Positions 21,172 to 27,872 of a stretch of DNA of 64,000 bases are shown here, in pieces. The stretch spans positions 1-64,000 of the forward strand of contig WGMP01000012.1 of the NCBI GenBank assembly GCA_016124975.1, given 5' to 3'. A program made the position numbers and the translations under genes. Source of the stretch: Phycisphaera sp. (lineage in GTDB: Bacteria; Planctomycetota; Phycisphaerae; Phycisphaerales; SM1A02). The notes under the pieces are model-generated. The model ran no database searches, was not told the origin of the DNA, and saw only the letters and a list, made by a program, of their open reading frames with translations. The first letter of the stretch is position 1. The number at the start of each line of letters is the position of its first letter.

Positions 21172-22164
21172 ATGTCTGATTGGAAGCCCAACGAGGACGA
21201 CGCGTCGAGTCGCGGCCCGTCTCGGCGGGAAACACCGTCTTCCCGTTATGCGTCCACTTCGGGGGGCGTCCCGATCGGTTCGGGTGCCTCGGACGAGGGT
21301 TCGTGGACCGACCGAGATCGAGCGGAGCTCCTGCAACTGGCGGAGCTCGAAGCGCTCGCGCTCGTTGATGCCGAGCAGGACCCCGTCGCGTCCGCCCGCC
21401 TCGAGCGGCTGTTCGAAGCGGCGCCACCGTCGGTTCAGGCAGAGATGCGCGCGCTGCAGGAGCGCGTCGCGACGAACCCGCTCCTTCGCAGCGCCGAGCT
21501 TCCGTCGGACTCGCTCCGTCTTCGCGCCATCGCACGGGTGGTGCACGCGGCCGAGGAGGAGTCGCGTGCCGCTGAACCCATCGCGACGATCGGGCCGCGC
21601 AGGCCTGGCCGTGGCGGCGCCCAGGGTGACCGATTCTCGTTCGATGAGGTTCGGTCGATCATCGATGGGATCTCCCGCGAGCGAGACCGCATGCAGAGCG
21701 TGCGTCAGCCGTACTGGCGGGTCGCTTCGTTCATTCTCCTCGCCGCGCTGAGCGTGTCGCTCCTCTTCAACTGGCGCTATGTGGATGTGAGCGAGAAGTT
21801 TGCGCGCTTCACCGTGGGCGAAGTCATTGACGCAGAGATGCGCGCGCTGGCCACGGATCTCGCCGGGTTCGACTTCGCGCGGGCCGAGCACAGGGTTCTG
21901 GTGGCCGTATCGCCGAGCGCGTCGGGCTGCGGTTCGGTCTACATCGACGCGGAAAGCGGACGCGTGGCCGTGCTCGGCCTCGGGTTTGCCCCTGGCGAGA
22001 CGCTCGAGATCGTCGTGCACGACTCGGACAGCGGACTCTCGCACTCCCAGCGATTCCTCGCGGCCACGGGCTTCGGGAAGATCTGCGAGATGCCCGCCGA
22101 GCTCGCCCGTCGCGGGACGGTTGAGATCCGCGATTCATCGGGGACGGTGCTCTTCAGGGCGTGA
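21172..22164 (+). CDS. Probable membrane anti-sigma factor
   Basis: A 330-residue protein directly downstream of the ECF sigma factor. The N-terminal half is cytoplasmic-looking, Ser/Gly-rich then helical with acidic segments (ELLQLAELEALALVDAEQD, followed by ERLFEAAPPSVQAEMRAL). One membrane segment follows (about residues 183-202, VASFILLAALSVSLLFNW). The C-terminal part, outside the membrane, looks like a beta-rich sensor domain (VLVAVSPSASGCGSVYID...). No zinc-binding HxxxCxxC motif is visible, so it is not a ZAS-type anti-sigma. Role is inferred from gene order and topology. The ATG follows GTGCGTG without a strong ribosome binding site. The stop codon TGA lies in the first copy of a 20-bp tandem repeat. 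Confidence 0.65.
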   Translation: MSDWKPNEDDASSRGPSRRETPSSRYASTSGGVPIGSGASDEGSWTDRDRAELLQLAELEALALVDAEQDPVASARLERLFEAAPPSVQAEMRALQERVATNPLLRSAELPSDSLRLRAIARVVHAAEEESRAAEPIATIGPRRPGRGGAQGDRFSFDEVRSIIDGISRERDRMQSVRQPYWRVASFILLAALSVSLLFNWRYVDVSEKFARFTVGEVIDAEMRALATDLAGFDFARAEHRVLVAVSPSASGCGSVYIDAESGRVAVLGLGFAPGETLEIVVHDSDSGLSHSQRFLAATGFGKICEMPAELARRGTVEIRDSSGTVLFRA

Positions 22165-22340
22165 TTTGAGCGCTCGCGGCGTGATTTGAGCGCTCGCGGC
22201 GTGATTTGAGCGCTCGCGGCGTGATTTGAGCGCTCGCGGCTGCGGCCGCTCGCTTTGGTGCTTGGGCGCTGTTTGCTTTGGTGCTTGGGCGCTGTTTGCG
22301 TTGGTGCTTCGGCGCTGGGCGGTTTGGTTCGGTGCTCAGG
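22161..22340. repeat. Compound tandem repeat: 20-bp unit x4 then 23-bp unit x3
   Basis: Four perfect copies of gtgatttgagcgctcgcggc occupy 22161-22240. The stop codon of the anti-sigma gene (22162-22164) lies inside copy one. Each copy carries the palindrome GAGCGCTC. After a GC-rich joint come two perfect copies and one diverged copy of a 23-bp unit (22252-22274, 22275-22297, 22298-22320) with the core TTGGTGCTTGGGCGCTG. The array fills the gap between two convergent genes and reaches the ABC-F stop. The units echo those at 4191-4286 (TTTGAGCGsTCGC and TGGTGCTTG). Confidence 0.93.
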
Positions 22341-24457: not shown

Positions 24458-25354
24458 TCAATCCTTCGGAATCGGCTTTCCGCGCCATTCCCAGATCCAC
24501 GCGACGAGCCTGCGGTCGTGCGGCGGAAGGATGAATCGGAAGATCGCGGCGGCAAGCGGCGGCGCCATGAGCGCGGTGACGGCGCCGACGCACGCAAGCC
24601 AGGCCAGCATCAGTCCTGAGAAGAATGGTCCGTTCTCGACGGCGGCGTAGCTTGTCCAGGTCATGTTCTGCGGCAGCGCCGTGCCGACGCGCATGACGGC
24701 GAACACGCCCGCGATGGCGAGCACGCCGCCGATCGAGGGAACCAGACCGCCGATCGCTGCGCGCACGAGCGGATGCCGGCGCATCCCCGCAAGTCCGATG
24801 AGAAGCATGGTCGGCACGAGCATCGCGCCGCCGAGGACCGCGAACCCGAGGAAGGGGATCAACGCCCCGAGGTTCATGCGGGACGCACGCAGCGCCGCGC
24901 GGCCCTCGTCGGAGGCGAGCCACGCCTGGTCCGCCACGGCGAAGCGTCCGCTGTCGAACTGCTGCGACTGGTCCCGCGTCGTGCCGCCCTGCGCACGGTA
25001 GGCCTCGACCAACGCATTCGCCGACTCGTCGGCGGCCTCCGTGGCGATGCTCGGAAAGAGCCCGCCGATGCCGACCGCGGCGAGCGTCGCTAGGAGCGCC
25101 ATGGTGACGAAGAATGCAGCCGCGACCGACTTCATGCGTCGGATCCAGGGCGTGATGGTCGGATACTCGAGGAGCGCGGCGGCCGCTCCGCACTCGACGC
25201 AGCGGCAGTAGAGGAGGCCCGTCGCGGGCTCGCGCATGACGGCGCTGCCCGCGAGGGGGTGCAGGCACTCCATGCACACGCGGTCGCCCGAGACGGTCTC
25301 GCGGGGAACCTCGCGGGGCGCGGCCCGTTCGGAGTGGTCGCGCTCGCTCGTCAT
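24458..25354 (-). CDS. Multi-pass membrane protein with N-terminal zinc-ribbon-like cysteines
   Basis: A 298-residue protein of unknown function. Near the N-terminus are CMEC (about residues 27-30) and CRCVEC (about 50-55), a Cys4 arrangement that could hold zinc. After that come about five membrane segments separated by loops, one of them long and soluble (SIATEAADESANALVEAYRAQ). The ATG overlaps the stop of the upstream gene as ATGA, so the pair is probably translationally coupled. The upstream protein has the same plan (Cys4 ribbon plus membrane segments), so the two may form a complex. No family was recognised. Confidence 0.72.
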   Translation of the reverse strand: MTSERDHSERAAPREVPRETVSGDRVCMECLHPLAGSAVMREPATGLLYCRCVECGAAAALLEYPTITPWIRRMKSVAAAFFVTMALLATLAAVGIGGLFPSIATEAADESANALVEAYRAQGGTTRDQSQQFDSGRFAVADQAWLASDEGRAALRASRMNLGALIPFLGFAVLGGAMLVPTMLLIGLAGMRRHPLVRAAIGGLVPSIGGVLAIAGVFAVMRVGTALPQNMTWTSYAAVENGPFFSGLMLAWLACVGAVTALMAPPLAAAIFRFILPPHDRRLVAWIWEWRGKPIPKD

Positions 25355-26049
25355 TGGTCGTGCCTTCCTCGCGTGGTCCCGCCGGGAGCGGCGGCGCGAA
25401 TCTCCCTTGCGCGGCGGCGGTGTGCGGTTGCCGCGATCGGGCCGAGAAGCAGCCCGCCGATCGCGCCGAGCGGGATAGAGAGCGCGAACGAAAGGAGCAT
25501 TGCGACGATCGCCGTGGCCGCGGTCCCGCCCGGCTCGAAGGGGTCGCTCACGACAAGCGGTCGCAGACCCCTCGCCCACATGCCGGCCATCGCGGGCGCG
25601 AACAATGCGCCGAGCGTGAGCACGACGGGCGCGACGCCGATGAGCCATGCGGCCGCCGCCTGCGCGAGCGGAGGCTTGTGCGGCGCCATCACCGCGCCCG
25701 AGACGCCACTCATCGCCGCGATGAGGAGGACGAACACGGTGAGCGGCGACGCGAGCGCGTCGAGGAGGCCGTCGCCGAACGGGAGGATCACGCGCGCGAT
25801 GAGCAGCGCGACCATGACAACGAGCGCAGCGCCCGCCGCCTGCGCGAGCGTGAGGCCGACGCCGAGCCGGAGGTTGAGGGTTCGCAGGCGCGCCCAGACG
25901 CGCACGGGCTCGCGCGCCGCGCGCGGCGACCAGCGCACGGCAAGGCCGCAGCGGCCGCAGCGCGCGATCCACATGCGGAGGTCGCGGGAGTAGCTGCGCG
26001 ACGCGGAATCAAGCATCTTTCCGCAGGAGCCGCACGCGTGGCTGATCAT
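25351..26049 (-). CDS. Multi-pass membrane protein with N-terminal CxxC...CxxC motif
   Basis: A 232-residue protein starting with a probable zinc ribbon (CGSCG at about residues 6-10 and CGRCG at about 31-35). Four or five membrane segments follow (for example VVMVALLIARVILPFG and ATAIVAMLLSFALSIPLGAIGGLLLGPIA). It overlaps the next gene by ATGA and shares its architecture. It is transcribed divergently from a small anchored protein gene starting only about 50 bases away, so the promoters must be compact. Function not recognised. Confidence 0.7.
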   Translation of the reverse strand: MISHACGSCGKMLDSASRSYSRDLRMWIARCGRCGLAVRWSPRAAREPVRVWARLRTLNLRLGVGLTLAQAAGAALVVMVALLIARVILPFGDGLLDALASPLTVFVLLIAAMSGVSGAVMAPHKPPLAQAAAAWLIGVAPVVLTLGALFAPAMAGMWARGLRPLVVSDPFEPGGTAATAIVAMLLSFALSIPLGAIGGLLLGPIAATAHRRRAREIRAAAPGGTTRGRHDQ

Positions 26050-26097
26050 CCACCCGAGGATACCAGCGGGTTCGGCGGTGCGTACACTGCCGCCCCC

Positions 26098-26541
26098 GTG
26101 CTCGACCGAAGCAGCGCCCGACGAAAGTTCGCCTATCCGCTCGTGACGCTCGCCGTCGCGGGGGTGGTATACCTCCTCTCGCGCGGGCAGATCGCCTCGA
26201 CCGCGCCTGCGGCGCCCGCCGAATACGAGGCGGTCGCGCGCGAGGTGGTTGCGGCGGTGCGTGCGGGGCAGCCCGTGCCGAGGGCGGTGACGCCGACGAT
26301 CGACACCGTGTTCGCGTCGATGGCGCCGCCGTGCGTGCGCGAGGACGGCGGCGGGGCGCTCGCCTATCGAGTCGCCGGGCCGCTCATGACCGACGGCACG
26401 ATGCCGTGGATCCAGTCGGTCGAGATCCGCTGCGGCTCGGGCGAAGGCGTGGCGCTCTCGATCGCGATCCTCGACGGACGGCCCGAGGTCGTCGGCGTGG
26501 CGCGGCTCGACGCCGTGGCGCCGGAAGGAGTTGCACCATGA
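26098..26541 (+). CDS. Small membrane-anchored protein of unknown function
   Basis: A 147-residue protein starting at GTG 26098. A short basic N-terminus precedes one membrane anchor (FAYPLVTLAVAGVVYLLS, about residues 11-28). The rest is a small exported domain with two cysteines (PPCVRED and VEIRCGSG), possibly forming a disulfide. The protein ends in GVAP. Its stop codon TGA overlaps an ATG as ATGA, the first of three identical stop-start junctions leading to the PabC-like gene. Real coding is likely from codon use and gene packing, but the family is unknown. Confidence 0.6.
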   Translation: MLDRSSARRKFAYPLVTLAVAGVVYLLSRGQIASTAPAAPAEYEAVAREVVAAVRAGQPVPRAVTPTIDTVFASMAPPCVREDGGGALAYRVAGPLMTDGTMPWIQSVEIRCGSGEGVALSIAILDGRPEVVGVARLDAVAPEGVAP

Positions 26542-26586
26542 CCGCCGGAGTTGCACCATGACCGCCGGAGTTGCACCATGACCGCA
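26527..26586 (+). repeat. Tandem triplication of a ribosome binding site + ATGA junction
   Basis: Three direct copies of ggagttgcaccatgaccgcc lie at 26527-26546, 26547-26566 and 26567-26586 (the last base of the third differs). Each carries GGAG seven bases before an ATG (26538, 26558, 26578). Because 20 is not a multiple of three, the first two ATGs each open a 7-codon ORF (MTAGVAP) that stops in the TGA of the next ATGA. The third ATG starts the PabC-like gene. The upstream protein also ends GVAP, so the unit is a duplicated gene junction. Confidence 0.95.
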
Positions 26587-27468
26587 TGGATCAACGGGAA
26601 GTTCGTTGAGCACGCCGACGCGCGCGTCGGGCTCTTCGACGCGGGATTCCAGCATGGAATCGGCCTCTTCGAGACGATGCTCGCGCGCGACGGCGCCGTG
26701 CTCGGCTTCGAGGCGCATCTCGAGCGCCTCGCCGCGAGCGCGCGCGAGCTGCGGCTCTTCGACCCGCTCAAGGTCGAGCCGCTCGCGGAGGCCGTGCAGC
26801 ACACGCTCGCGAAGAGCGGGCTTCGCGACGCGCGCATCCGCATCACGCTGACCGCTGGCGACATGGGGCGGCCGTTCGTGGGGGCGAACGCGGCGTCCGA
26901 CAGGCCGCAGCCCTCGCAGCCGACGCCGACCGTCGCGATCCATGTGCAGCCTCCGACGCGCTACCCCGACGAACTTTTCGCGAAGGGCGTCGCCGTGTCG
27001 ATCGCGGAGGACCGCGCCAACCCGCTCGACCGCTTCGCGGGTCACAAGACGCTGATGTACTGGCCGCGCATCGCGGCGGTGCAGCGCGCGGCGGAGGTGG
27101 GCTGCGCGGAGGCGCTCTGGTTCACCGTCGCCAACCGTCTTGCAAGCGGCAGCGTTTCCAGCGTCTTTCTCGTGAAAGATGGGCGTCTCCGCGTGCCGTT
27201 TGCGCGCGGCGAGGAGACCGAAGGCGCGATGCGTGCGCCCGTTCTCCCCGGCGTGACGCGGGCGCGCGTCCTCATGTGGGCCGAGGTCGAGGGCCGCGCC
27301 GTGGAGCGCGCCGAGCTGACGATCGACGACCTGCTCGCCGCCGACGAGATCTTCCTCACGAACTCGAGCTGGGGCGTGCTGCCCGTCGTGCGCGTCGAGC
27401 GGCACGAGGTCGGCGGCGGCGCGCCCGGGCCCGTCGCGCGCGCGATGCGCGAGAGGTGGCTTGCGTGA
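26578..27468 (+). CDS. Class IV PLP-dependent aminotransferase, probably aminodeoxychorismate lyase (PabC-like)
   Basis: A 296-residue fold-type IV PLP enzyme. MTAWINGKFVEHADARVGLFD and GFQHGIGLFETM are the typical N-terminus. The PLP lysine is in GHKTLMYW (about residue 158). The C-terminal phosphate-binding segments EALWFTVANRLASGSVSSVFLV and EIFLTNSSWGVLPV are intact. The family covers branched-chain aminotransferase, D-amino-acid aminotransferase and 4-amino-4-deoxychorismate lyase. The short length and N-terminus favour PabC (folate synthesis), but this needs substrate data. The start is the third of three repeated ribosome binding site/ATG units. The stop overlaps the next gene as GTGA. 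Confidence 0.85.
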   Translation: MTAWINGKFVEHADARVGLFDAGFQHGIGLFETMLARDGAVLGFEAHLERLAASARELRLFDPLKVEPLAEAVQHTLAKSGLRDARIRITLTAGDMGRPFVGANAASDRPQPSQPTPTVAIHVQPPTRYPDELFAKGVAVSIAEDRANPLDRFAGHKTLMYWPRIAAVQRAAEVGCAEALWFTVANRLASGSVSSVFLVKDGRLRVPFARGEETEGAMRAPVLPGVTRARVLMWAEVEGRAVERAELTIDDLLAADEIFLTNSSWGVLPVVRVERHEVGGGAPGPVARAMRERWLA

Positions 27469-27872
27469 CCGGTTTCGGCGGACCGGGCGGCGGTTTCGGC
27501 GGCCCTCGCGGGGGATTCGGCGGATTCCGCGTGTTCACCGTGGGCCGCGACGCCGCGTCGCGTTTCCGCGTGCGCCTTCCGTGGCGGCTTCGTCCGAACG
27601 CAGGTCCGCTCGAGCGGATCCTCGTGGGCGTCGTGACCTTCATCGTCGCGATTCCCGTCGCGGTCGTCATCCTCGCGCTCGCCGTGGTGGCGCTCGTCGC
27701 GGCGCTTGGCTGCGCGGCGGTGCTCGTCGCGTTCGCGCTCGTCGGCTTCGTCCTGGCGTGGCTCGTGCGGACGATCCTCGGCGTCGGGCCGAGGGCGACC
27801 ATGCGCGTCGAGCGTGCGCGCGACGACGGACGCGAGAATGTCCGCGTGATCCCGCCCCGCGACGGCGTGTGA
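27465..27872 (+). CDS. Small Gly/Phe-rich membrane protein
   Basis: A 135-residue protein whose GTG start overlaps the PabC-like stop (GTGA). The first 20 residues are a GFGGPGGGFGG-type low-complexity segment. A basic stretch follows, then two closely spaced hydrophobic segments (ILVGVVTFIVAIPVAVVILALAV and the next, about residues 50-95), and a short charged tail. It lies between the aminotransferase and dnaE. No family is recognised; being translationally linked to a housekeeping enzyme supports real expression. Confidence 0.6.
   Translation: MTGFGGPGGGFGGPRGGFGGFRVFTVGRDAASRFRVRLPWRLRPNAGPLERILVGVVTFIVAIPVAVVILALAVVALVAALGCAAVLVAFALVGFVLAWLVRTILGVGPRATMRVERARDDGRENVRVIPPRDGV

Follow-up and report, generated by a model that had tools for sequence, protein, structure and literature searches.

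A tripled 20-bp unit across a stop-start gene overlap forms two seven-codon minicistrons before a class-IV aminotransferase gene in a planctomycete genome

Translation of gene pairs that overlap by 4 nt is usually coupled (PMC6728339, PMC10666635), and direct initiation has been found for bioBF, one overlapping pair of E. coli (PMC6728339). In E. coli reporters, a gap of 38 nt between stop and start lowered reinitiation by 80–90% or abolished it (PMC10666635). Planctomycetes have been grouped with lineages making intermediate use of Shine-Dalgarno (SD) sequences (PMC6728339). A passage on Planctomycetes in a long-read study of a lake associates deletions in non-coding DNA with intergenic tandem repeats (PMC9426551). 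A search of open-access text gave no description of stop-start overlaps occurring naturally in a tandem series, which is weak evidence of novelty. Here, we describe such a series in the window, i.e. the whole 64,000-nucleotide stretch of Phycisphaera sp. DNA that was analysed, which belongs to a genome that is probably a MAG (59 contigs, 97.6% complete).

Direct reading of the sequence shows three 20-bp units arranged head to tail at positions 26527–26586, with 59 of the 60 bases identical (Table 1); Tandem Repeats Finder (TRF) called the array with a period of 20, 3.0 copies and 100% identity. By its near-identical head-to-tail copies it has the form of a variable-number tandem repeat, and the 3.6-Mb genome contains no copies of the unit other than these three. 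The ATGA overlap is thus present three times (26538, 26558 and 26578), every ATG being preceded by GGAG with a 7-nt spacing. From the ATG at 26538 the codons are ACC GCC GGA GTT GCA CCA TGA, and those from 26558 are identical, so that two seven-codon mini-ORFs run head to tail, each with a stop TGA overlapping the ATG that follows. The third ATG is the start of the aminotransferase, reading MTAWINGKFVEHAD. As a result, the two full-length genes no longer overlap directly: their stop and start are 36 nt apart (the stop ends at 26541 and the start lies at 26578) and the mini-ORFs bridge the interval. The three consecutive stop-start points, the two identical short ORFs and the SD-like GGAG before each start, all described in the initial annotation, were confirmed by this reading. 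The three ribosome-binding sites are nevertheless not equal, since AAGGAG belongs to copy 1 only (GGAAGGAG) and copies 2 and 3 carry CCGGAG. An assembly artefact at a locus truly made of one or two units would be in keeping with the fragmentation of the genome. However, the array, of 59 bp, would fit within an ordinary short read, three copies within unique flanks do not resemble a collapsed repeat, and many longer arrays were assembled in the same genome, making this explanation very improbable.

Table 1. Features of the tripled junction and of the genes around it (positions in the window)
Feature	Position	Strand	Remarks
Upstream gene, 147 codons	26098..26541	+	GTG start assumed; stop lies within the ATGA of unit 1
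Unit 1, ancestral junction	26527..26546	+	GGAGTTGCACCATGACCGCC; AAGGAG SD; ATGA 26538–26541; SD-antiSD duplex -9.3 kcal/mol
Unit 2	26547..26566	+	GGAGTTGCACCATGACCGCC; CCGGAG SD; ATGA 26558–26561; duplex -6.5 kcal/mol
Unit 3	26567..26586	+	GGAGTTGCACCATGACCGCA, last base A; CCGGAG SD; ATGA 26578–26581
Mini-ORF 1, MTAGVAP and stop	26538..26561	+	Direct reading
Mini-ORF 2, MTAGVAP and stop	26558..26581	+	Direct reading
Class-IV aminotransferase, 296 aa	26578..27468	+	PF01063; start conserved in relatives, M-x-x-W-[IL]-N-G
Next gene	27465..27872	+	Another 4-nt overlap with the aminotransferase, GTGA 27465–27468

The upstream gene ends with the TGA at 26539–26541, and the next in-frame start after its assumed GTG is at 26143. 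It has no Pfam or NCBIfam profile match, and homologs were found in 13 of the 15 other genus genomes searched. For the aminotransferase, an in-frame TTG at 26551 was considered as an alternative start and discarded, since it lacks a spaced SD and the relatives start at the position of 26578. A 684-codon shadow ORF of the kind typical of GC-rich DNA runs antisense through this gene on the minus strand (window positions 25351–27405). The aminotransferase was initially annotated as PabC-like. The match to PF01063 supports the class-IV fold family, but identity with PabC is not established, the PabC models scoring well below their cut-offs (TIGR03461, 94.5 bits for a cut-off of 176.85; PRK07650, 112.4 for a cut-off of 308). 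The best NCBIfam and PDB matches are of the branched-chain aminotransferase type, with NCBIfam scores all below the curated cut-offs, and the closest solved structures are branched-chain aminotransferases. The protein keeps the lysine (HKTLMYW). In the class-IV aminotransferase fold, a Glu contacts the PLP pyridine nitrogen. Here, the corresponding motif EG-x-x-x-N-x-F reads SGSVSSVF (27142–27168, residues about 189–197), this Glu being replaced by Ser. Nearly all of the closest roughly 45 homologs have a small residue at this position, and most of the more distant ones keep AEG; to judge from the sequence, a change of the reaction is possible.

The gene pair is conserved across the genus, and the homologs found are from Phycisphaerae-type Planctomycetota, many of them lake MAGs. 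To compare the junction we used one genome per species, setting aside G010 and G014, which have no close aminotransferase match, and G008, whose contig is cut before the junction. In at least seven other species (G001, G004, G006, G009, G012, G013 and G015) the same pair meets in one overlap of 4 nt, either ATGA or GTGA; the junction of the nearest relative, G006 (84% amino acid identity), reads GGAAGGAGCGTCGGGTTCATGACCGCATGG. In G002, G003, G005 and G011 the two genes are separated by a short non-overlapping gap. G007 (L008) retains the ATGA, which is followed by an in-frame repeat of roughly 18 bp that lengthens the N-terminus by 24 residues (MKDKSSTQSTKPSNSTKPTNSTKP-MAAWING); this is an independent expansion at the same junction. 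The comparison of copy number in close relatives, proposed in the initial annotation, thus places the triplication in one genome, none of the junctions read having more than one unit, from which we conclude that it is derived. As the copies are undiverged, it is either recent or kept uniform by slippage. Tandem sites before a start codon can also form a binding array for a regulator, and the unit might then be a repeated operator or RNA-binding site in which the start-stop pattern is incidental. Since the junctions of the relatives do not conserve the unit and the genome has no copy of it elsewhere, we regard this as extremely improbable.

The regular ladder of starts and stops follows from the length of the unit. 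Let P be the length of a unit carrying ATGA. Counted from one ATG, the TGA of the next unit is reached after P+1 bases, and it lies in the frame of that ATG only when P = 2 mod 3, as is the case for one period in three. The pattern had been ascribed to 20 not being a multiple of three, which is correct as far as it goes, but a period of 1 mod 3 fails and the true requirement is 2 mod 3. The ladder therefore needs no design, because any such period across an ATGA necessarily gives mini-ORFs whose stops fall on the following start. With any number of copies, the upstream protein terminates in the first unit and the downstream protein begins in the last, so both remain intact and the array can be tolerated.

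Near-perfect tandem arrays (identity ≥95%, copy number ≥2.4, period ≥9) are frequent in this genome: a sample of 1.62 Mb (45% of the genome) contains 45 of them, i.e. 27.7/Mb. Densities in smaller samples were 16/Mb in G012, 49/Mb in G007 and 2.5/Mb in the more distant G024. All 11 arrays lying within called genes have periods divisible by 3, and the 34 outside them are distributed 11/10/13 over the three phases, which is what one expects if slippage occurs everywhere and arrays survive in genes only when the frame is kept, those outside genes looking neutral. For the overlaps, genes were called with a model seeded with dnaE, leuS, btpA, an ABC-F gene and the aminotransferase. Called genes leave 306,754 bases uncovered, and the 111 overlaps (the 110 called and the tripled one) offer about 17 positions each; from these counts, about 0.2 arrays are expected by chance on an ATGA junction in the sampled 1.62 Mb, and about 0.08 with a period of 2 mod 3; the single array observed has to be read against this value of about 0.2 knowing that the window was chosen because the array was noticed. 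Duplication of such a junction is rare, as no other was found among the 110 called 4-nt overlaps of this genome. We searched 301 genomes belonging to the order for GGAG-N7-ATGA recurring within 30 bases; 50 of them matched, and inspection by eye retained exact duplications at two loci among these matches, the one described here and G268:C150:7284–7321, from another family of the order, which reads GGAGATTGCTCATGAAACCTTTA GGAGATTGCTCATGA with a period of 23 (2 mod 3) and a mini-ORF MKPLGDCS. Two events cannot show a phase preference.

These figures bear on the suggestion that the array is a selected, slippage-prone rheostat, in which copy-number variation in the population would set aminotransferase output. 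Perfect copies could change in number, their position at the start site makes an effect on expression plausible, and the link reported for lake planctomycetes would fit. On the other hand, the triplication is confined to one genome, arrays outside genes look neutral in phase and number, about 0.2 arrays of this sort would arise by chance, and the gene is one for a common type of metabolic enzyme and neither a surface nor a phase-variable gene. Overall, we consider such a function quite improbable. Independently of the junction, a motif, TTTGAGCGGTCGC / GTGATTTGAGCG, recurs in arrays outside genes (window positions 22158–22240 and many other stretches of the genome), with 29 and 12 copies in 1.62 Mb for none of the reversed control; it was absent from the G007 and G024 samples. 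TTTGAGCG was found outside called genes in 71 of 79 occurrences, and the whole looks like a dispersed non-coding repeat family.

The 3' end of the 16S rRNA carries CACCTCCTTT, and SD 4-mers precede 78 of the 110 called 4-nt overlaps (71%) as against 14–25 (13–23%) in upstream controls. Given this excess, SD-assisted reinitiation is probably usual at the overlaps of this genome which, together with the stop-start anatomy of the locus, makes a relay of reinitiating ribosomes across the tripled junction plausible. An effect of the mini-ORFs is possible, since the expression of a gene can be altered by a very short ORF before it, as known minigenes illustrate (PMC8708949). The main rival to the relay is direct initiation at copy 3, which could make it irrelevant: the third unit would itself recruit 30S subunits, the array would be inert for translation and the mini-ORFs would hardly matter. 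The GGAG at the proper distance before 26578 would allow this, the modelled opening cost of the aminotransferase start barely shifts with copy number (from 9.9 kcal/mol with one copy to 11.2 kcal/mol with three) and bioBF provides a precedent. However, the SD of copy 3, like that of copy 2, is weaker than that of the ancestral junction (modelled SD-antiSD duplexes of -6.5 and -9.3 kcal/mol, respectively), its site is costlier to open than that of copy 1 (11.2 vs 7.6 kcal/mol), and coupling is the usual situation at 4-nt overlaps. We therefore hold an inert array to be unlikely, though the most serious of the alternatives.

The explanation that we favour, and consider fairly probable, is a recent and tolerated slippage duplication over an ancestral ATGA overlap, with minicistrons that relay ribosomes to the aminotransferase. 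Judging from the form of the array, replication slippage in an array-prone genome would have duplicated a 20-bp segment spanning the 4-nt overlap, each added unit giving a seven-codon minicistron whose stop overlaps the next start. Because 20 is 2 mod 3, ribosomes leaving the upstream gene could then cross the new 36-nt gap stepwise, by successive termination and reinitiation, with part of the aminotransferase initiation possibly occurring directly at the weaker SD of copy 3. Without the mini-ORFs coupling should be lost, in view of the effect of a 38-nt gap in E. coli (PMC10666635). With them, it is expected to be kept at a somewhat lower level, owing to two extra steps, a weaker SD and a less open copy-3 site, so that output of the enzyme would be similar or somewhat lower. 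Taken together, the triplication is real and rare, and most likely a near-neutral outcome of slippage in which coupling was preserved by chance.

As biology of this organism, the tripled junction is thus probably near-neutral. It suggests that overlapping genes may remain coupled after an insertion, provided that the inserted length is 2 mod 3, and a natural series of stop-start overlaps of the same sequence would allow the loss of coupling per reinitiation step to be measured. A broader proposal sees in the tandem duplication of ATGA junctions, where the period is 2 mod 3, a general way for gene pairs to gain serial minicistrons, which would keep coupling across insertions and let copy number set the protein ratio. 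We regard this as unlikely; were it true, the 23-bp event of G268 and a 14-bp duplication before btpA would be further cases. The other candidate junction arrays of the genome were inspected and mostly rest on shadow ORFs, those at btpA (L248) and rpe (L219) being kept as leads. At L248:2334–2359 (G000:C30, about 22334), the 14-bp duplication GATGATGGACCAGC (2 mod 3) lies at the upstream stop before btpA (PF03437) and makes a five-codon ORF, MMDQR followed by a stop, ending on a further in-frame ATG, with the conserved btpA start 18 nt later; the junction is a single ATGA overlap in some relatives. At L219:17734–17810 (G000:C16, about 137734), the gene for ribulose-phosphate 3-epimerase begins in a 12-bp, in-frame repeat of start codons (V/MTTTMTTTMTTTMASTMTSTMTST) that offers several possible starts. 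Eight copies of CCAAGGGTTGATGT lie at the end of a reading frame at L164:2365–2478 (G000:C31), with MSKG mini-ORFs and TGATG overlaps, and no gene directly after them.

The tripled junction has the ATGA, the SD within the upstream frame and the kind of gene pair known from termination-reinitiation at 4-nt overlaps (PMC6728339, PMC10666635), and differs in having three overlaps in series, through two seven-codon minicistrons, in place of one. With the minigene mg2 of axe-txe (PMC8708949), for which frame and distance matter, it has in common a tiny ORF before a gene, but mg2 has two codons, not seven, and is suggested to act via mRNA stability. Like the intergenic tandem repeats of lake planctomycetes (PMC9426551), the array lies outside coding sequence, here exactly on a gene-gene overlap. 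Finally, as in the synthetic bicistronic design (PMC5995908), a short leader ORF encloses the SD for the start that follows and terminates at that start; here the arrangement is natural, has seven codons instead of about 17, comes as two ORFs in tandem and is fed by an upstream gene.
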